A stretch of 64,000 bases of DNA. It comes from a bacterium (GTDB lineage Bacteria > Cyanobacteriota > Vampirovibrionia > Gastranaerophilales > Gastranaerophilaceae). Position 1 is the first letter of the stretch; every line of letters starts with the position of its first letter. The stretch spans positions 186,001 to 250,000 of the forward strand of contig JAFQLC010000018.1 of assembly GCA_017396695.1 (NCBI GenBank), read 5' to 3'. The translations under genes were made by a program, and so were the position numbers. Below the pieces are notes generated by a model. That model did no database searches, was not told the DNA's origin, and saw only the letters and a list, made by a program, of their open reading frames with translations. This document shows, piece by piece, positions 15,623 to 41,752 of this stretch.

Positions 15623-15781
15623 ATGTTAAATTGCCTTAAATTTGCACCCCTCAAAAACCATGGAAACATGCACTACGTCTCATGTTACGAATTGTTAACT
15701 AAAAAGTATATAAAAAAGCAATATTTTTTGAATAATAAACTTTATTAATTCAAGAGAGATTTTTTGCAAGGAGAGCAAACT

Positions 15782-17350
15782 ATGGTATATGGAGTACAAG
15801 ACCCAAATGCAATGTATAACAAATATGGCATAAATGGTTTTTATAACCAATACGGGCTATATAATAACAACCAATCACCAAGCATTTTTGGAAATGGTTA
15901 CAATCAAGGAAATGGTGATGATGGTAAAATTTCTTTTGGCGAAAAAGTTGGTAGCTTCTTCAAAGGTATCGGCAAGTCAATTGTAAATGGCGTTAAATCA
16001 ATTTTCACACCTAAAGGATTATTGAAAACAGCGCTTACTGTTGGTGCTTGTATGATTCCAGGTATCGGACCTGTGATTGGTATGGGGCTTGCAGTAGCTG
16101 GCGTTGCAAAAGGTGCTTCAACTGTTCTTAAAGGTGCAGCTCAAGCTTCAGCTGCAACAACAGATGCGGAAGCAAAAGCAGCTTGGGAAAACATTGGTGG
16201 CGGCGCATTCACAACAGCAGCTTCAGTAGCCGGTGTTAAAGGTGCAGCAAAAGCTATTGGCAATATGAATAAAGCAGCAGCAGCTTCTGGTGGTGTTGAT
16301 GTTTCAAAAGCAACTGGCCTTGCAAAAGCAAAAGGTACATTGCAAAATGCTAAAACGACATTTGACAAATCAAGCCTTGGTAAAAGCGTAACAAAAGTTA
16401 CAACTGCATACAAAAATGGCGATAAATTAACAGGCAAACTTAAAGATGCAGGCACAGCTGCAAAAGAAGAACTCAAAACTGGTTATACATCAGTAAAAGA
16501 TAAATACACTGCAAGCAAAACAGCAACAAAAGCAGCTAAAGATGCAGCAGATGATATCAAAAATGTGGATTCTAAAACTGCAGCTAAAAAAGACTTTGTA
16601 GATGAATATCAATATGACACTGCAACAGGCAAATATACTTCTAAAAAAGGCGGCGAAGCATTAGAAGTAGATGCATACAAAGCAAAAGTTAAAGAATACG
16701 ATGCAAGTATCGCAGATGCAAAACATTCAACGGCTTCATCAGTTAAAAAAGCAAGCAAAAACACACAAAATGCTAAAAACGCACAAAATGAATTCAGCAA
16801 TAAATATGACACTTCAAAAGAAATCACGCAAGATGGTGTTGTTGGTTTCAAGTCAAAAGATGGCGAAATGTTCATAAGTAAAGAAAATTACACAAAACAA
16901 TCGCAAACACTTGCTAAAAATGTAAAAAATGCAGAAAAAGCTTACGACGCATCAAAAACAGGTTATGAACAAGCTAGAAAAGCAACGCAAACAAGAGAAC
17001 AAGCACTAAAAGTAAAAGAAACTGAAATCTCAAGCGCTAAAAAATTAACAGACGCTCAAGCGAGAAAAGAAGCAACCCAAGCAGCTAATGATAAGTTCAA
17101 TAAAACAATTGAAAGCGAAGTTGCAAAAGTTAAAAACCAAGCAGCAAAAGATGCACTCAGAGGCGAAACCTCAATGACAAAAAATATCTTCGGTGGTTTC
17201 AAAAGAGGAACAGTTGCAAACAATTGGGATACGAAAGGCGCAAGCTCTATGGCTCTTGCAAATCACCTAGAAGAAGCAAACAGTGAATACGAAATGTATA
17301 ATCAATATCTTCAAAGCGTAGCAAATTCAAACACAGGCTATAGTGCATAA
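15782..17350 (+). CDS. 522-residue Ala/Lys-rich coiled-coil protein with a hydrophobic segment
   Basis: I do not recognise this protein. Order: an Asn/Tyr/Gly-rich N-terminus (YGINGFYNQYGLYNNNQ), a Lys/Phe stretch (GSFFKGIGKSIVNGVKSIF), one hydrophobic glycine-rich segment (about residues 82-108, GACMIPGIGPVIGMGLAVAG), then about 380 residues rich in Ala, Lys, Asp and Thr, mostly helical and coiled-coil (repeated KxAKxxxDxA). No signal peptide or enzyme motif. AAGGAGA seven bases before ATG 15782 sets the start. The composition suggests a long fibrous or membrane-associated protein; a surface or structural role is a guess. Confidence 0.7.
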   Translation: MVYGVQDPNAMYNKYGINGFYNQYGLYNNNQSPSIFGNGYNQGNGDDGKISFGEKVGSFFKGIGKSIVNGVKSIFTPKGLLKTALTVGACMIPGIGPVIGMGLAVAGVAKGASTVLKGAAQASAATTDAEAKAAWENIGGGAFTTAASVAGVKGAAKAIGNMNKAAAASGGVDVSKATGLAKAKGTLQNAKTTFDKSSLGKSVTKVTTAYKNGDKLTGKLKDAGTAAKEELKTGYTSVKDKYTASKTATKAAKDAADDIKNVDSKTAAKKDFVDEYQYDTATGKYTSKKGGEALEVDAYKAKVKEYDASIADAKHSTASSVKKASKNTQNAKNAQNEFSNKYDTSKEITQDGVVGFKSKDGEMFISKENYTKQSQTLAKNVKNAEKAYDASKTGYEQARKATQTREQALKVKETEISSAKKLTDAQARKEATQAANDKFNKTIESEVAKVKNQAAKDALRGETSMTKNIFGGFKRGTVANNWDTKGASSMALANHLEEANSEYEMYNQYLQSVANSNTGYSA

Positions 17351-26508: not shown

Positions 26509-27906
26509 CTAACCTCTTCCTAGGTAAACTAATGTTTGAAGAATGCTATTTGCTGTGTCGAATACTCTTGAGTTTGCCTCAATTCCTCTTTGAGCAAGAA
26601 GCATTGTTGAGAACTGACGGCTCATATCTACGTTTGAGCTTTCTAAGCCCCCTGTTGCAACTGAACCAATACCGTGGTTGCCTGCTGCCGCATAGCTTAT
26701 ATCCCCTGAGTTAGGACCAGATGCGTACATATTTGAACCAACTGCTACAAGACCTTGATTGTTTGTAACGTTTGCAAATTGCATTTGCATGTTGCCAGGG
26801 ATAAGGGCATTTGGGTCAGCTTTTACGTCATCATCTATAATTTCAACGCCGTTTGTCATCGTATATTTGAATTTATAGCTATCATCGTCTTCGTCTTTAT
26901 AAACTGTGATTTTGTCACCATTTGAATATGTTGCTTCGATGATACCTGTTTCACTCACTGACCAAGATTCAAGGGTAATAGCTCTGTCAACTGCTGATAC
27001 AGGGTCAATTGTTACATTGTAGTCTAGAATTTTTGTTGAATAATATGCATTTGTGGTTGCAGTTGCAGGAACTTTGCTCGCCCATGAAATATCTGTTGTT
27101 TGAACGAAGTTTGATGTTCCTGATTTAAATGACATTGTTTGAACTAAATCAGCTCCTGTGTCTGGGTTTTTATTGATTTGGAATTGCAAAACACCATCTT
27201 TTATAACGCAACTTACTGGCATATTTTGGTTGGTTAGTTGCGTATTGAAATCAGCAACCATTTTTTGGACAGTAGTTTCAGTTGGGTTGCCAATAGTAAG
27301 TGTTGCACTTCCTGTTGTACCATCAGGTTTAATTATGTTGATTGTGAAATCACCAGCAATGATTTGAGCATTGTTTGTTTCATCTAATGTTTTTGTTTGG
27401 AAAGTTGCTGTAGGTTGCGCTACTGGCGCAAGTTCCAAAGATTGTGGGATTTTAACAGGAGTTGTTGATGCACTATAAGACAAAACTTGTTCAGTACCAA
27501 GAACATTGTAACCGCTTGATGTTACAAGGTAACCATTTGAGTCAAGTGTGAAGTTACCATCACGAGTGTAACGAAGAGCGCCGTTTGCATCACGAACAGT
27601 GAAGAAACCATCACCTTCGATTGCCATATCTGATGTTTTACCAGTTGTGTTGATTGATGAAGTATCAAAGTTTTTAGTGATTGAAGAACTTAAAGTACCA
27701 ACACCTACTTGCTTACTGTTAGTACCACCTGCTGTGTAAGTTGGAGCGGTACCACTTGTGTATGTTTTATACCATACATCTTGAAAGTTAATCGCTGATT
27801 CTTTGAACGCTGTTGTGTTCAAGTTTGCGATGTTGTCTGAAACAACGGTAATTGTTTCTTGACCTGCGTTAATCCCAGTCATTGCGGTGTACATTGCTTG
27901 TGACAT
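26509..27906 (-). CDS. flgE: Flagellar hook protein FlgE
   Basis: Hook subunit of the flagellum, 465 residues. The N-terminal rod-family motif (AMYTAMTGINAGQETITVVS, then DNIANLNTTAFKES) and the C-terminal motif (GGLESSNVDMSRQF, then RGIEANSRVFDTANSILQTL) flank a variable middle. The A-E helical ends are characteristic of FlgE/FlgF/FlgG; the length and the link to flgD point to FlgE. AAGGAGAT seven bases before the ATG is strong. It is last in the fliJ-fliK-flgD-flgE series. Confidence 0.94.
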   Translation of the reverse strand: MSQAMYTAMTGINAGQETITVVSDNIANLNTTAFKESAINFQDVWYKTYTSGTAPTYTAGGTNSKQVGVGTLSSSITKNFDTSSINTTGKTSDMAIEGDGFFTVRDANGALRYTRDGNFTLDSNGYLVTSSGYNVLGTEQVLSYSASTTPVKIPQSLELAPVAQPTATFQTKTLDETNNAQIIAGDFTINIIKPDGTTGSATLTIGNPTETTVQKMVADFNTQLTNQNMPVSCVIKDGVLQFQINKNPDTGADLVQTMSFKSGTSNFVQTTDISWASKVPATATTNAYYSTKILDYNVTIDPVSAVDRAITLESWSVSETGIIEATYSNGDKITVYKDEDDDSYKFKYTMTNGVEIIDDDVKADPNALIPGNMQMQFANVTNNQGLVAVGSNMYASGPNSGDISYAAAGNHGIGSVATGGLESSNVDMSRQFSTMLLAQRGIEANSRVFDTANSILQTLVYLGRG

Positions 27907-27956
27907 CTATATCTCCTTGTTATTTGTTTGTTTTTTTATTGTCTTATTTATGGCAA

Positions 27957-28517
27957 TTAGCCAGAGTATTTTTCATTTGAGAGAAAACCTTTAACTGCTT
28001 CAGAAAGCCCTGAGAAGTTAATATTTAAATCTCCTAAAGTTTTTTCAATTGATTGAATTGATTTTGTATTTTGTTCAACTTGTGCTGAATTATTATTTGA
28101 TGGTGCAACATTTTGCACAAGGTCTAGTGGATAATCTTTTCCAGCGATTGTGATTGTTGGTTCGTCTGTTGAAAAGTTTGCAGATTCAACAACGCCTGTG
28201 ATTGTTTTGTTTTTGTTGTCAGGGTCTGTAATTGTGACTTCTTTTCCAACAAGAGAAAGTGTTTGTTGGATTGCATTGTTGCTTGCAATTTCACTATCAA
28301 TGTCCATAATTTTTTCTAATTGAGTAAACATTGCTTGTTGTGAAAGAAATTCAGTGTTGCTTACAGGGTCCAATGGATCTTGATATTGAAGTTGTTCAAG
28401 CATCAATTTCAAGAACATATCAGATGTTACTTCTGAATTATTTGTTTTTGCATCTGCTTTTGCCATTTCTGCTTTCGCAGTGGCATTTTGCATACTAACG
28501 AGTTCTGATGAAGCCAT
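27957..28517 (-). CDS. flgD: Flagellar hook cap protein FlgD
   Basis: Hook assembly scaffold, 186 residues. The FlgD signature MFLKLMLEQLQYQDPLDPVSNTEF is at about residues 34-57. The C-terminal part is shortened against the longer FlgD of enterics but contains EVTITDPDNKNKTITGVVES. It overlaps the end of fliK by 23 nt in another frame. GGTAGG precedes the ATG. The polar tail (PSNNNSAQVEQNTK) is atypical. Confidence 0.94.
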   Translation of the reverse strand: MASSELVSMQNATAKAEMAKADAKTNNSEVTSDMFLKLMLEQLQYQDPLDPVSNTEFLSQQAMFTQLEKIMDIDSEIASNNAIQQTLSLVGKEVTITDPDNKNKTITGVVESANFSTDEPTITIAGKDYPLDLVQNVAPSNNNSAQVEQNTKSIQSIEKTLGDLNINFSGLSEAVKGFLSNEKYSG

Positions 28518-30177
28518 TATTACCTACCTTTATACCTTCATAACTTTCATAGTTTTCAACCAAACTTTCTTGATAGTAACTTCTTTGATGATGGTGTTCA
28601 GAATTTTCTGAAGAATTTTGGTTGTTTGAGTTTTTATTTTGTTGATTTGAATTATTTTCTTTTGCGTTTTCTTCTTTTCGGTTATTTTCTTTGAAATCTT
28701 GCGCAAGGTCTGAATTATTATTTGCGCCTTCAGGTGTTTTAATTACAATATTGTCAACTTGCACACCTGCTTGTGCTAGTTTTGACCTTAGTCCTTCAAT
28801 ATCTTGCTCAAGAAGTTTTTTAACATCTTCATTTTGAGCTAAAATTGTTGCAGAAACGCCGTTTTTATCTTGACTCATTTCAATTACAACTCTTCCCAAA
28901 TCATTTGGGCGAAGAGTTAAAGTAATTTTTGCGTTTCCATTTGTTTTTAATTGGTCAAATTTTGCAGTAATTTGGTCTAAAATATCTTGTTTTTGGACTT
29001 CGCTAAATTTTGCGCTAGCGCTTGTTGTTGCTTGTTTGAAGTCTTGAACTTTATTTTGTGTGCCCTGATTTGATAAATTCAAACTTTGGTTTTCATTATG
29101 TCCTGCGTTATTTGATGCTTGAGCATTATTTTGGAGTGCTTGAATGTTTCCTGCTTCAGTTTTTGCACCGAATGTTTTTTCAAGGGACATTTTAAACATT
29201 TGTTCACTTGCGTTGCTTGTAAGTTTTGAGCTTGCATCTGTGCTTGCTTTTGTGCCAAGCATAATTTCATCAACATTTAAATTTAAATCTTTTAAGATTT
29301 TTTCTTCAACAATGCCTTCGATATTTGGTTCATTTGATGACATAATTTCATCAAGTGACATACCAGTTTCATTTTGAATATTTTCGCTATCAACAAAAAT
29401 TTTGCCTTTTAAAGCTTTCGTTTCTTCAGATGCTACATCTAATTCATCAACTTCAGCTAAATCAATTTCATTTGCTCCTTTTGTTTGAGCTGTTTTATCG
29501 GTTGCTTTGGTGTTGATTGTTGTGATATCTTCTGCGGTTTCTGTTGTTGATTCATCTGTTTTATCAACTTCAGCTAAATCAATTTCAATTTTTTGAAGGT
29601 TATCAAGCGCTTTTGTTTCTTGGGTTGCGTTTGTTTTATTTTCAGTTTTTAGCGTTGTATTTTCGTTTGTTGTTTCTTTTGTGTCTTCAGTTGTTGTTTT
29701 TTCAACTGTGTCGATGTTTGAAATATCTATCGTTTCAATTATAGCTGTTTCTTTTGAAATATTTACCGCTTCTTCAAGTTGTGCAGTCACTTTTTCAAGT
29801 TCTTCATTATTTGTATTTTCAACATTTTTTTCATCTTTTGAAGCAGTATTTTCTGTTTTATTTTCGCCCTCAACTTTATCTTGTTTATTTAATTTTTTGT
29901 CTTCATTTTGTGTGTTTTGAATTTTTGAATTGTCATTTATATTATTTTCATTCTTAATTTTTTTTGTTGAAACTGTTGTTTGGTTTGTTTTATTTTTTGT
30001 ACTAGAGGAAGCAAAATCTGCGAGTTCTTTTTGTTTTTTTGTTGCATTTGCAAAAATCTCGCTAAAATCCACACCTTGAGTGGTTGTTGTTGTCATAGAC
30101 ATTTTTTGCGAAAGCATTGCTTTTAGGCTTTCTTCAACACTCCCTGCTATACCATTTGATTGTAATAATTCTTGCAT
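28495..30177 (-). CDS. fliK: Flagellar hook-length control protein FliK
   Basis: Secreted ruler that switches export from hook to filament, 560 residues. The first 350 residues are low-complexity, rich in Thr, Glu, Asn and Lys, as expected of FliK rulers, with two copies of EIDLAEVD (the DNA 24-mer is repeated at 29449 and 29568). The C-terminal Flg_hook domain is clear: NAKITLTLRPNDLGRVVIEM, then LLEQDIEGLRSKLAQAGV. An Asn-rich tail with HHHQ follows. GGGGA upstream of the ATG. A low-similarity N-terminal half is usual in FliK. Confidence 0.93.
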   Translation of the reverse strand: MQELLQSNGIAGSVEESLKAMLSQKMSMTTTTTQGVDFSEIFANATKKQKELADFASSSTKNKTNQTTVSTKKIKNENNINDNSKIQNTQNEDKKLNKQDKVEGENKTENTASKDEKNVENTNNEELEKVTAQLEEAVNISKETAIIETIDISNIDTVEKTTTEDTKETTNENTTLKTENKTNATQETKALDNLQKIEIDLAEVDKTDESTTETAEDITTINTKATDKTAQTKGANEIDLAEVDELDVASEETKALKGKIFVDSENIQNETGMSLDEIMSSNEPNIEGIVEEKILKDLNLNVDEIMLGTKASTDASSKLTSNASEQMFKMSLEKTFGAKTEAGNIQALQNNAQASNNAGHNENQSLNLSNQGTQNKVQDFKQATTSASAKFSEVQKQDILDQITAKFDQLKTNGNAKITLTLRPNDLGRVVIEMSQDKNGVSATILAQNEDVKKLLEQDIEGLRSKLAQAGVQVDNIVIKTPEGANNNSDLAQDFKENNRKEENAKENNSNQQNKNSNNQNSSENSEHHHQRSYYQESLVENYESYEGIKVGNNGFIRTR

Positions 30178-30187
30178 TTTTTCCCCG

Positions 30188-30634
30188 TTAGTTTTTGTTT
30201 TTGTAGCGACTAATTGCTATATCGTCAATCTCTTTCATCTCTAGTTTTTCGAAGTGTTTCAGATGTTCTGTTTCTTGTTTTTCTTTTAAATTTTCAAGAG
30301 TTTTGAGTTCCTGATAGACAATTGTCATTACTTTTTTTTGTTCTTCAATTTTGATTTGTGTTTTTTTAATTAAACCTAGCTGAGTTTGGATGTCTGAATT
30401 AATTCGCTCAAGAAACATTCTGCAATTGCATATTTCGTTAATTGCCATTGTTTCTCCGTTTTGGAGTACATCTATTCTTTCAATCAATTTCCTTTTTTTG
30501 TACTCCATTTCATTTAGAATATCAATTTGCGAATTTAGAATGTTCTGTAACTCTGCAAGTTTTAATCTTTCGTCCTCAAGTTTTTTCTCCCTAATTTCAA
30601 GAATTGGTTGCATTCTGAACTTAAATTTTTTCAT
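30188..30634 (-). CDS. fliJ: Flagellar export chaperone FliJ
   Basis: A 148-residue coiled-coil protein of the flagellar export apparatus. It opens with the FliJ signature KKFKFRMQPILEIREKKLED and stays helical and charged almost throughout. Position immediately before fliK (10-nt gap) agrees with standard fliI-fliJ-fliK order; fliI and fliH are not in view because the cluster begins here and the next gene upstream is divergent. Confidence 0.9.
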   Translation of the reverse strand: MKKFKFRMQPILEIREKKLEDERLKLAELQNILNSQIDILNEMEYKKRKLIERIDVLQNGETMAINEICNCRMFLERINSDIQTQLGLIKKTQIKIEEQKKVMTIVYQELKTLENLKEKQETEHLKHFEKLEMKEIDDIAISRYKNKN

Positions 30635-30804: not shown

Positions 30805-31698
30805 GTGCAAAAAATTGGTTTTAAAAATTTTCAGAATTTTTCTGTGAAAAATAATCAAGCAAATCAAAACCTAGAACAGAAAAATAAAGAAAAAATACGC
30901 AAAATGTGCATAACAATTTCTTCTTATGCGCCTGCTGTGCCAGTGTTTTTTGCGCATAATTTTTCCACTAATTCATTTTTTAAGAAAATGTTTAATACTG
31001 CAAAAAGCTTGAGTGAAGACGAGATTAAGATTTTAAACAATAATGCAGATAAAATCCTTAAAAGAGAAAAACTTGAAAAATTAATTGATATAAAAAACAT
31101 TACATCGAAAACTAATCTTTCTAAATTTTTACAAACACCACTAACCATTCAAGATTTGCAGCAGGTTCAACAAGGTTCAAATGCTTTTTTCCACGGAGAT
31201 GGTTCGATTTATATAAATCGAGAAGTTGCTCCAAATTTGCTATTTCATGAAATTGGGCATGCGCACAATAATAAATTTTCTTCGTTTTTCAAAAAAATAT
31301 TTCCCCTTTACCTGCCTTCACAAAAAATTCCTTTCGTGCTTGCGTTTGCGAGTTTGCTTTTGAATGAAGAAAAACCAAAAGAAGGCGAAGAATTAACTAA
31401 ATTCCAGAAAGCAAAAAATGTGTTTAGAAAAACACTTCCGTTCCTTGCTGCAGCATCATCTTTGCCTATGCTTATGGAAGAAGGCATGGCGACACATAAA
31501 GCAAACATATGGGCACGAGAGCTTCTTGAACCTAACCTTGCAAAAAAATTGGCAAAAAGTTACAAATTTGGCTTTTTGACCTATCTTGCAATTCCAATTT
31601 CTGCTTTTTTGATAAGCTTTTTGGGTATGAAATATAAAGATTTTTTATCGAGCGGGAAAAGCAATAAAATGGCGGACACCAAAAACACATCTCAATAA
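30805..31698 (+). CDS. Putative membrane gluzincin-type metallopeptidase
   Basis: A 297-residue protein that I do not assign to a known family. The zinc motif HEIGH (residues 148-152) sits in LLFHEIGHAHNN, and a Glu in MLMEEGMATHKA (225/226) lies about 75 residues later, the distance and context of the third ligand in gluzincins. Hydrophobic segments lie at about 35-52, 165-190, 207-224 and 255-280, so the active site would be near the membrane. It begins with GTG 30805, the first start after an in-frame stop, without a clear ribosome site. It is divergent from fliJ. Substrate unknown; the Pro/Lys-rich C-terminus is disordered. Confidence 0.62.
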   Translation: MQKIGFKNFQNFSVKNNQANQNLEQKNKEKIRKMCITISSYAPAVPVFFAHNFSTNSFFKKMFNTAKSLSEDEIKILNNNADKILKREKLEKLIDIKNITSKTNLSKFLQTPLTIQDLQQVQQGSNAFFHGDGSIYINREVAPNLLFHEIGHAHNNKFSSFFKKIFPLYLPSQKIPFVLAFASLLLNEEKPKEGEELTKFQKAKNVFRKTLPFLAAASSLPMLMEEGMATHKANIWARELLEPNLAKKLAKSYKFGFLTYLAIPISAFLISFLGMKYKDFLSSGKSNKMADTKNTSQ

Positions 31699-38827: not shown

Positions 38828-39916
38828 ATGGATAAGAAGAATTATTTAAATTTATTTGTTTTAGTGTGCTTCGGTTTAATATTAAGAGCACTTGGAAGCT
38901 ACACAGGAAATGGTGTTTCGGGTTCTATAGATTTTGCAAGTGGAATTAGTGCAAATTCTTTTTTTGGTGCAAGGTCATCTTTTATTTTTCCTTGGTGTGC
39001 TGAAAATTTGCATTTCAATTTGGGTAATTTTTTTGGTGCCGATATTTTTAGTTTAATCTTTGGTGTTGCATCAATTATTGTCCTTTATTTTATTGGTTAT
39101 ATTTCTTCAAAAGAAAATTCAAATATGGGATTATTTGCAGGAACAATTTGTGCTGCAAGTGGTATATTGATTGCATTTGGGCATAGTTTGAATTTTGTGA
39201 ATTTGTTGTTTTTTATATCAAGTTTAGTAGTTTTTCTTTCGCTTAAAGTTTTAAAAAATAAAAAATTTGGAAATCTAACTGCAATCTCACTTTTAAGTTT
39301 GTTGCTTGTGCTTTTGCATCCTGTGAGTATATTTTTTGTGATTTTCAATTTTATTGCGATTTTTGCATTTTCTAACCAAAAAGTAAAAATAGATAAAGCA
39401 TTCACAAACTTTCTTTTCCCATTGGTGCTTGCAATTCCAATTTGCTTGTTTATGATTTTTGGTTTTTTAGATGTCAAGGCAAATCCTTTTTCAATTAATA
39501 TAAATGACATTTTAGTTAGTTATTCTGCGCTTTTTTCAATTAACCCAGTGGGGCTTAAAATTGCAAGTGTCAACCAAAATATTATAAATAATATAGTCTT
39601 TTGGGTGTTTGTTTTTACTCCAAGCATAATTTCGGCTTATTTTATATTTAGAACTTGCGCACATCAAAAACACAATGTTTACTTTGCACTGAGCACATCA
39701 TGCGCAACATTTTTTACTGTTTATTTAATTTTAAATGTCTTAAAAATTAATTTTGTGGCATGCCATATTATTGAAATTTATCCACTTTTAATATTTCTTT
39801 TTGCTAAAGGCATTATTTTGCACAAAGAAAAAGCCACAAGGAGTGTGCTTTTTGGGCTCTTTGTTTTCTTAAATGTGCTTGGGTGCTTGTTTTTAGCCTT
39901 GCCTGTATTAAAATAA
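38828..39916 (+). CDS. Multi-pass membrane protein, possibly GT-C-like
   Basis: A 362-residue protein with about 10 hydrophobic helices. The layout (long first luminal loop after helix 1, SGISANSFFGARSSFIFPW, then many short-looped helices) recalls the membrane half of GT-C glycosyltransferases such as PMT/ArnT relatives. The acidic DD/DE catalytic pair expected in the first loop is not clear (only GSIDFASG), and no soluble C-terminal domain follows, so the assignment is tentative. No operon partner; it is divergent from the receiver gene. Confidence 0.6.
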   Translation: MDKKNYLNLFVLVCFGLILRALGSYTGNGVSGSIDFASGISANSFFGARSSFIFPWCAENLHFNLGNFFGADIFSLIFGVASIIVLYFIGYISSKENSNMGLFAGTICAASGILIAFGHSLNFVNLLFFISSLVVFLSLKVLKNKKFGNLTAISLLSLLLVLLHPVSIFFVIFNFIAIFAFSNQKVKIDKAFTNFLFPLVLAIPICLFMIFGFLDVKANPFSININDILVSYSALFSINPVGLKIASVNQNIINNIVFWVFVFTPSIISAYFIFRTCAHQKHNVYFALSTSCATFFTVYLILNVLKINFVACHIIEIYPLLIFLFAKGIILHKEKATRSVLFGLFVFLNVLGCLFLALPVLK

Positions 39917-39995
39917 AAAACGTTCCAAAAAAATAATAAAAAAAGGCAATTTTTTCTGTGTTTTTGTTTTTATTAACATGGGAAGAAAAAGATAT

Positions 39996-41060
39996 ATGTT
40001 AAATGTTGGGAAAATAACTACGAATATTGGGAGAGGCGCAAAAGCGGTTGCGAATAAAGTTGCAACAGGTGCTCGAAACACATTGACTGCAGCTGGAAAA
40101 GCTAGCGCTCCAAATCTTACTGGAGATGTTTATCAAGATGCCCTAAATAGTTCAATGGGCAAATTTGGTAAATTGCTTTCTAAATTAAAAGACGGCGAAT
40201 ATATGAATATTTTGGTAACCGCATTTGGTACTGCAGTTGTTGCTCCAATTTTCATTGCGTTTAACCCATTGAGCAAAAAAGATAAAGAAACAAAAATGTA
40301 TTCAGCTCTTAGGCAGCCAATTTCTGCTGTTATTGCAGTTGCAGCACAAATGAGCGTTGTAAAAGCTTTAAATAATGCTCTTGATAAATATGCTTCAACA
40401 GGCGGTGTTAAAGGAATGGATTTGAGAGATAAGCAAAAAGAATCTTATCTTAAAAAATTAATAAAAATGGAAAATCCTGACATCACAAAAGAAGAATTGA
40501 AAGAAGCTATCAAAAAAAGACAAACTGCAACATTTGAAGAAGCAATTAAAAAAGCTACTGAAAGCTTTAAAGATACGCCAGTAGATGAGATTTTAACTAA
40601 AGAAAATTCAATTTCTGTAAAAGACTACACAGAAAAAATCAAAGAACTTAAAGCTCAAAATGGTGGCAAATTGTCTAAAGATTTAAAAGGCAAGGTAGAA
40701 GATTTGATTTTTGCCGATACTAAAAAAGCAATTCAAGAAAAAGCACAAGCTCTTGTTGATAAAGGAAAATGCGCTAATTTAGATGATGCCGTTAGACAAG
40801 AAACAATTAAGAAATTTGTTAACGCAAAAATTGCAAAAGCAGGAGATGTTCTAAGTTCAAATAAAAAATATTTAGGCATTGTGTTGAGTCTTCTAACACT
40901 CCCTGTAACTTGCGGTATATTAAACTGGGCATATCCAAGAATTGTTGAAAAATTCTTCCCAGATCTTGCAAATTCTAAAAAGCAATCTGAAGCAAAAAAA
41001 GCTGAGGCTCAAGCGCAACCTCAACCTTCGGTACAAAAAACAGAAGAGGAGGATGACTAA
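39996..41060 (+). CDS. Membrane protein A of an unrecognised two-gene module
   Basis: A 354-residue protein of no family I know. An amphipathic, Ala/Lys-rich N-terminus (ITTNIGRGAKAVANKVATG) is followed by a hydrophobic segment NILVTAFGTAVVAPIFIAF, the conserved-looking NPLSKKDKETKMYSALRQP, a second helix, then about 160 mainly helical charged residues with KAIQEKAQALVDKGK, and a final helix LGIVLSLLTLPVTCGILNW. The tail is Gln/Glu/Ala-rich. An ATG at 39978 would add six residues; 39996 is chosen on a purine-rich stretch upstream, with little certainty. The stop overlaps gene B by one base, so both are made together. Confidence 0.6.
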   Translation: MLNVGKITTNIGRGAKAVANKVATGARNTLTAAGKASAPNLTGDVYQDALNSSMGKFGKLLSKLKDGEYMNILVTAFGTAVVAPIFIAFNPLSKKDKETKMYSALRQPISAVIAVAAQMSVVKALNNALDKYASTGGVKGMDLRDKQKESYLKKLIKMENPDITKEELKEAIKKRQTATFEEAIKKATESFKDTPVDEILTKENSISVKDYTEKIKELKAQNGGKLSKDLKGKVEDLIFADTKKAIQEKAQALVDKGKCANLDDAVRQETIKKFVNAKIAKAGDVLSSNKKYLGIVLSLLTLPVTCGILNWAYPRIVEKFFPDLANSKKQSEAKKAEAQAQPQPSVQKTEEEDD

Positions 41061-41752
41061 TGAGTTTAGGTGTTAAAGCTGTAAATTGGCTCTCAAATTC
41101 AGGGTTGATGAAAAAATTAAATAAACCATCTGTTGCAGGCGCAGCTTCTGCTATTGCTCTTGCTTCAACCACTTCAAAAGATATTGTTTCAACATATTAT
41201 TATGTAACTCAATCTATGAATAATAAAAAAATTCCTGAAGAAAAAAGATCTTTTGTTGCGGCACTTGACCTTGGAAATGGAATTATGAATGTTATTACAG
41301 CGTTTGCAATTGGTCTTCCAATGAAAGGCTGGATGGAAAAATTATTTGACAAAAAAATTGCAAATAAATGCTTTAATGCTGATAAATTAAGAGCAAGTGC
41401 AAAAGAGTTTGTTGAAAAAGCTGGGAAAACTTTTGATGAGAAGAAATTTATGGAAGCACTTGGCGCAAGAAAAGGCCTTGCAAGAACAGGGCTTTGCGTT
41501 TTAGGTACTCTAGTTGGTTCTCAAGTTATCGGGAAAAGAATAATTACTCCGCTTTTTGCAACTCCTATGGCAGATACTTTTGAAAAAATATTCAAAAAAG
41601 ATAAAGGCGATAAAAAGCCTGAAAGAGAATTAACAAGCGAAGAAAAAGTTGCAATTGTGAACTCTGAAATGCCAAATAACACAGATGCCAATATCAACCA
41701 AAATTTAGCAGGTGATAAACTTCCTGAAAACTTTAAAAAGTTTGAAGTATAG
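41060..41752 (+). CDS. Membrane protein B of the two-gene module
   Basis: A 230-residue protein, unrecognised. Three hydrophobic segments (PSVAGAASAIALASTT; LGNGIMNVITAFAIGLPMK; LCVLGTLVGSQVIGKR) followed by ITPLFATPMADTFEKIFKK and a charged tail. The pattern resembles gene A: a helix ending in a Pro-rich turn and then an acidic/Lys-rich disordered C-terminus, so the two could be distant paralogues. ATG overlaps the stop of gene A. Its end overlaps coaE on the other strand by 20 nt. Function unknown. Confidence 0.62.
   Translation: MSLGVKAVNWLSNSGLMKKLNKPSVAGAASAIALASTTSKDIVSTYYYVTQSMNNKKIPEEKRSFVAALDLGNGIMNVITAFAIGLPMKGWMEKLFDKKIANKCFNADKLRASAKEFVEKAGKTFDEKKFMEALGARKGLARTGLCVLGTLVGSQVIGKRIITPLFATPMADTFEKIFKKDKGDKKPERELTSEEKVAIVNSEMPNNTDANINQNLAGDKLPENFKKFEV

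Follow-up and report, generated by a model that had tools for sequence, protein, structure and literature searches.

The window, a stretch of 64,000 nucleotides from a genome of the Gastranaerophilaceae, contains two genes that lie end to end on the forward strand: A (39996..41060), coding for an A-type subunit of 354 amino acids from its likely start, and B (41060..41752), coding for a B-type subunit of 230 amino acids that is homologous to A. Both open reading frames are present and share one base, as reported in the first-pass annotation: the TAA stop codon of A occupies 41058-41060 and the ATG of B 41060-41062, so that base 41060 (41060..41060) belongs to both. Among 65 pairs, the same -1 overlap is found in 27 and a -4 overlap in 15, the remaining distances ranging between -77 and +19. 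The mechanical open reading frame of A starts at 39978 and has 360 residues, a numbering that is kept for the residues of the A features described below; the start at 39996, chosen in the first pass, is preferred because A of a same-genus relative, G001, begins at the equivalent ATG (MNVRKIT vs MLNVGKIT) after a purine-rich ribosome-binding site. A Shine-Dalgarno-like site for B, GAGGAGG (41046..41052), is contained in the final codons of A (EEEDD), 7 nt 5′ of the B ATG, and a similar AAGGAGGG occurs at the equivalent place in the end of A of G001. The gene overlaps across pairs, together with the presence of the B ribosome-binding site within A, support a coupled translation of A and B, in agreement with the coupled production first proposed. 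Comparison with G001 (Nei-Gojobori; dS 0.75-0.87) gave dN/dS values of about 0.24 for A and about 0.19 for B, indicating that both genes are under purifying selection with respect to this relative; this finding, together with the recurrence of the pair across the order, suggests that the pair is more than a chance arrangement.

Protein A contains three moderately hydrophobic segments (column-averaged Kyte-Doolittle 1.46/1.29/1.56), and its AlphaFold2 model, built from a 47-row alignment (pLDDT 83, pTM 0.70), shows three helices and a helical insert, all coded on the forward strand. Helix 1 (residues 73-94, 40194..40259) is hydrophobic and is followed by a conserved loop that extends into the start of helix 2, NPLSKKDKETKMYSALRQP (residues 96-114, 40263..40319); helix 2 comprises residues 103-140 (40284..40397). 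The middle helical region (about residues 155-261, 40440..40760) varies in length and is nearly missing in the shortest relatives, while helix 3 (residues 268-326, 40779..40955), as defined by hydropathy, model and alignment, has a hydrophobic mid-part and conserved N316 and P320. An AP-I-like segment between the first two helices had been singled out as distinctive; NPLSKKDKETKMYSALRQP does lie there, and it no other part of the family is as well conserved, P90 being invariant and I93, K100, P114 and A117 conserved in at least 90% of sequences.

Protein B has a similar organization, with three moderately hydrophobic segments (1.02/1.36/1.56) and a model of comparable quality from a 47-row alignment (pLDDT 85, pTM 0.69). 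Its helix 1 (residues 25-54, 41132..41221, + strand as for all B features) bears a conserved K40-D41 within the hydrophobic stretch; the conserved loop NKKIPEEKR (residues 55-63, 41222..41248) leads into helix 2 (residues 60-104, 41237..41371), with conserved D70 and G74, and helix 3 (residues 127-181, 41438..41602) contains a conserved K159, an ATP(L/M)A motif and, in the 47-row alignment, invariant R160 and P164; the helices were delimited by model, hydropathy and alignment, and the loop by alignment. K40-D41 is present only together with D70 (47/47), as expected for a putative ion-pair network, although kinship among the sequences also contributes to this co-occurrence. In the predicted helix register, residue 70 of helix 2 is opposite to about residue 161 of helix 3, and residue 40 of helix 1 to about residue 74 of helix 2; the conserved charges K40, D41, D70, K159 and R160 would thus lie at about the same depth in the hydrophobic zone. 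The hydrophobic segments and the charged, disordered C-terminus that had been described for both proteins are borne out, the C-termini being charged and of lower confidence in the models.

No entry of Pfam, NCBIfam, PADLOC or PHROGs matched either protein meaningfully, chance-level matches such as Asterix (E 0.07) and methylmalonyl-CoA epimerase (0.0024) both falling far below the curated cut-offs; sequence searches of the PDB were equally devoid of meaningful matches for A or B, those of A being confined to its coiled middle region. Fold searches of the PDB yielded best E-values of 0.41 for B and 0.87 for A, and 0.38 for B among viral models, none of which is significant. No Pfam match to EamA- or GtrA-type domains, which are typical of ArnE/ArnF and of GtrA translocases, was obtained in any family member. 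The lack of a recognised motif noted in the first pass therefore holds after profile and fold checks, in which no strong match of A or B to a known transporter or secretion family was found; the family is real and uncatalogued in the libraries searched. Two other signals were discarded: an Rz-like spanin match of the fused protein L096 (3.6e-4), which is taken as compositional, as it spans residues 182-296, mostly a charged linker, and an open frame of 24,078 residues in G040, which is a masked run of N and not a protein. A role in anti-phage defence has no support, as no PADLOC model matched, window proteins included.

A point missed by the first-pass annotation is the homology between A and B. 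An iterated profile had merged the two types and, since such a profile may drift, the comparison was repeated with controls and with profiles that were built separately and without iteration. When two A subgroup profiles were compared with two B subgroup profiles by hhalign, the E-values, each referring to a single pairwise comparison, were 3.2e-5, 2.3e-4, 4.6e-4 and 2e-3, with all four alignments in register over the helix 1-helix 2 loop and helix 2; the best control values were 0.023 in 5 reversed comparisons and 0.042 in 64 comparisons with unrelated neighbour families. Joins within each type were clear (7.5e-12 for the A subgroups, 1.3e-20 for the B subgroups). In the AlphaFold2 models, compared without superposition, the three helices agree in order and relative length. 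Both the homology, as judged from the profiles, and a common predicted three-helix fold appear well supported.

Pairing of A with B is obligate. With types assigned by profile and loci fetched from A matches and B matches alike, an A-type gene was found directly 5′ of the B-type gene on the same strand in 65/65 scorable cases, i.e., B genes of the sampled genomes with a visible upstream neighbour; the others are fused, and the two were never separate in the relatives examined. Eight fused A-B genes are found among the relatives and represent four or more lineages (L096; L139/L140; L141-L143; L155/L176). Within one genus, a single locus, with shared flanking clusters, carries the fusion in three species (L141-L143) and separate genes in two (L171-L172). 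The recurrence as paralogues, which had been suggested as a check, was found in related genomes and also in the window's own genome, which contains three pairs (that of the window, G000:C9 and G000:C28) and one fusion of 335 aa (G000:C24). The G000:C28 pair (L225:969-1511, 1489-2082) belongs to a divergent subgroup; LptA/LptC-like genes, recognized by eye, adjoin it and an SLH-domain-like gene lies downstream. Many members of the family have a disordered N-terminal tail closed by an FxG motif (VSFKG, FTGN, QSFKGN), which recurs at fusion junctions; examples are L096, L140, L155, L176, G000:C24 (L226:1498-2505) and others. Similar tails are present on unrelated proteins of the lineage (g7_376, g7_539, g7_662), and the motif is enriched at the fetched loci, but not significantly when 761 kb of one genome are considered.

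The family is multi-copy and order-wide, a feature that was also missed in the first pass, and, within the phylum, it is confined to the order. The first B profile matched in 174/192 sampled Gastranaerophilales genomes, and a profile of other B subgroups in 188/192, most of these genomes having 3-5 matches and the maximum being 11; some of the matches may be A-type, as A and B are homologous. A profile matches are confined to the order, and among the matches listed in 244 genomes across the phylum, neither those of B (102 genomes) nor those of A (90 genomes) fell outside Gastranaerophilales; when contigs were scanned with the single B sequence, the relatives obtained all came from this group or from bins lacking an order name. 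Queries of the phage, plasmid and viral collections with the single B protein gave no relatives of B, and a phage or plasmid origin is not supported. The window also includes, by eye, flagellar hook and hook-length genes (26509-30634); FliG is present in the window's genome and in 73/192 sampled genomes of the order, hence motility is patchy. Strong B members (E below 1e-30) were counted by hand in 106/119 genomes without FliG and in 33/73 with it, and on this distribution across the 192 genomes a flagellar role of the pair was rejected. Elsewhere in the window, 30805-31698 (+) codes for a protein with hydrophobic segments and a HEIGHAH motif like that of zinc proteases, without a Pfam match, and 15764-17350 (+) for a 528-aa Ala/Lys-rich protein that has a hydrophobic, glycine-rich stretch close to the N-terminus and no Pfam or NCBIfam matches.

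As to the genomic context, the gene upstream of the pair is on the same strand in 45/72 cases and the downstream one in 31/73; close co-directional neighbours come from a wide variety of families, and no constant partner gene, including transport genes, was found across the loci examined, so that the pair usually stands alone as a unit. Directly 5′ of A in the window is a gene (38828..39916, + strand) for a membrane protein related to PMT_2/GT39, which shares 24-28% identity with full-length relatives. The order PMT_2-like glycosyltransferase, A, B is found in 10 loci, with gaps of 2-83 bp before A (59-83 bp in nine of them), and it is kept even though both outer flanks differ between the window's genus and the other eight loci; near most of these eight there is a GT2 gene (cluster c3), which is directly 5′ of A in L149-L151. 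The upstream gene may be a partner in that subgroup only. In the window's genus its product is devoid of the acidic NDEY loop that is conserved in relatives; its dN/dS with respect to G001 is about 0.09, and it is possibly a pseudoenzyme kept by selection.

The fusions also bear on the orientation of the two halves. In five of them (L096, L140, L141, L143 and L176), chosen for having six resolved hydrophobic peaks and a cleanly delimited linker, the linker contains no further hydrophobic segment (maximum 19-residue mean 0.63); L139, whose automatic count was displaced by an extra N-terminal peak, was left out, as were L142 and L155, with only five peaks. Since such a linker has no hydrophobic helix, the C-terminus of A and the N-terminus of B must be on one side and, if every segment spans the membrane, the two halves of the fusion must run antiparallel. 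Direct fusion into an antiparallel protein is known to depend on each half having an odd number of spans (PMC3962082). The lysine and arginine bias has the same sign in the two proteins (mean +3.1 in A, +2.6 in B), whereas paired Fluc subunits, which are heteromeric antiparallel twins, carry an opposite K+R bias (PMC3755343); as read from the sequences, the distribution of these residues does not support an opposite orientation of A and B. All hydrophilic parts of both proteins are lysine-rich, with little side bias, and because of this and of a hydropathy that is modest for spans, insertion may instead be peripheral or re-entrant.

The best explanation as a whole, a tentative one that falls a little short of probable, is an obligate heteromeric membrane complex in which A and B form the two homologous halves. 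A heteromeric complex as such, which would correspond to the common complex first envisaged, is well supported by the repeated A-B fusions and by the overlap. We infer for A and B membrane insertion, complex formation, orientation and transport, and the following arrangement may be proposed. Translational coupling would provide the two subunits in a fixed ratio; in each, a short, conserved, lysine-rich loop would join helix 1 to a long helix 2, and a variable part would lead from there to a long helix 3. The conserved loop would lie at the same end of the bundle as the Pro-containing terminus of helix 3. The leading mechanism, possible on its own but to be held with considerable reserve, is a transporter- or channel-like antiparallel dimer, whose pseudo-symmetric halves would pass or flip a small charged or amphipathic substrate. 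A broader proposal, which we regard as doubtful, is that these are order-defining heteromeric complexes with a new fold of two homologous three-helix subunits, and that pairs, paralogues and fusions represent duplication-divergence-fusion intermediates of a new class of channels or transporters; the reading of the fusions as antiparallel intermediates holds if all six helices span the membrane.

The closest rival to the transporter- or channel-like mechanism, in our view somewhat unlikely, is a membrane-bound scaffold, in which a largely cytoplasmic heteromeric helical assembly, anchored by hydrophobic hairpins, would shape or organize the membrane, while different partners would bind to the variable middle parts and the disordered tails. 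The uniformly lysine-rich hydrophilic parts and the moderate hydropathy are consistent with it, as are helices 2 and 3, which with 38-59 residues exceed the bilayer, and the presence of several paralogous pairs per genome, which would suit pair-specific partners. Several BAR-type bundles occur among the sub-threshold fold matches; however, none of these matches is significant (best E 0.41 and 0.87), and a scaffold would not require conserved charges within hydrophobic helices.

For the glycosyltransferase-associated subgroup, A-B might be a translocase that flips a polyprenyl-phosphate sugar to the GT-C enzyme encoded upstream, in the manner of ArnE/ArnF and ArnT. The gene order conserved in 10 loci amid differing outer flanks and the nearby GT2 genes argue for this, but most pairs have no such glycosyltransferase and their neighbours are heterogeneous, the upstream protein in the window's genome lacks the NDEY loop, and the family has no match to the EamA type, to which the four-helix ArnE and ArnF belong; we consider it improbable. 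The adjacency of homologous helical proteins, together with low-ranking fold matches of A to MakA, AhlB and SmhB, would also be compatible with a two-component pore-forming or toxin-like pair of the long-helical-bundle type. This is very improbable indeed, given fold E-values of 0.87 or worse and TM scores of about 0.16 or less for ClyA-like pore formers, the presence of three distinct hydrophobic helices instead of a single hairpin, the lack of a secretion signal on inspection by eye, and a chromosomal, order-wide and multi-copy occurrence that, with B as query, does not extend to phages or plasmids.

The preferred explanation, a heteromeric membrane complex of homologous halves, concerns a family that almost all genomes sampled from this order, a common one of non-photosynthetic Cyanobacteria in the gut, possess and that is absent from the family libraries searched. 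The occurrence of four loci in one small genome, together with the purifying selection on the pair tested, suggests a basic envelope function peculiar to the Gastranaerophilales lineage. If the antiparallel reading is true, the paired, paralogous and fused forms within one group would allow a test of how inverted-repeat membrane proteins arise by duplication and fusion.

The proposed working mode would resemble those of Fluc channels, SMR pairs and ArnE/ArnF, to which A and B are unrelated. In their operon arnE-arnF come after arnT and, similarly, in one subgroup the A-B pair comes after a PMT_2/GT-C gene; A and B show no homology to ArnE/ArnF, most pairs are without a glycosyltransferase, and the upstream enzyme of the window looks degenerate. 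SMR proteins are not known to have long extramembrane helix extensions and tails, which A and B have instead, and no sequence or fold match links A or B to Fluc, SMR or DUF606. Fluc (CrcB) proteins of the tandem type are small membrane proteins encoded by two homologous genes that lie side by side, both needed as a heteromer, with fused versions elsewhere (PMC3755343); A and B share with them the adjacent homologous membrane-protein genes and the fused forms, but Fluc has four helices, opposite bias and an extra linker helix in its fusions, whereas A and B have three segments per half, a same-sign bias and no linker helix. DUF606 and SMR pairs form series of duplicated gene pairs and fusions (PMC3962082), and A and B resemble them in occurring as duplicated pairs and fusions with an odd number of segments per half.
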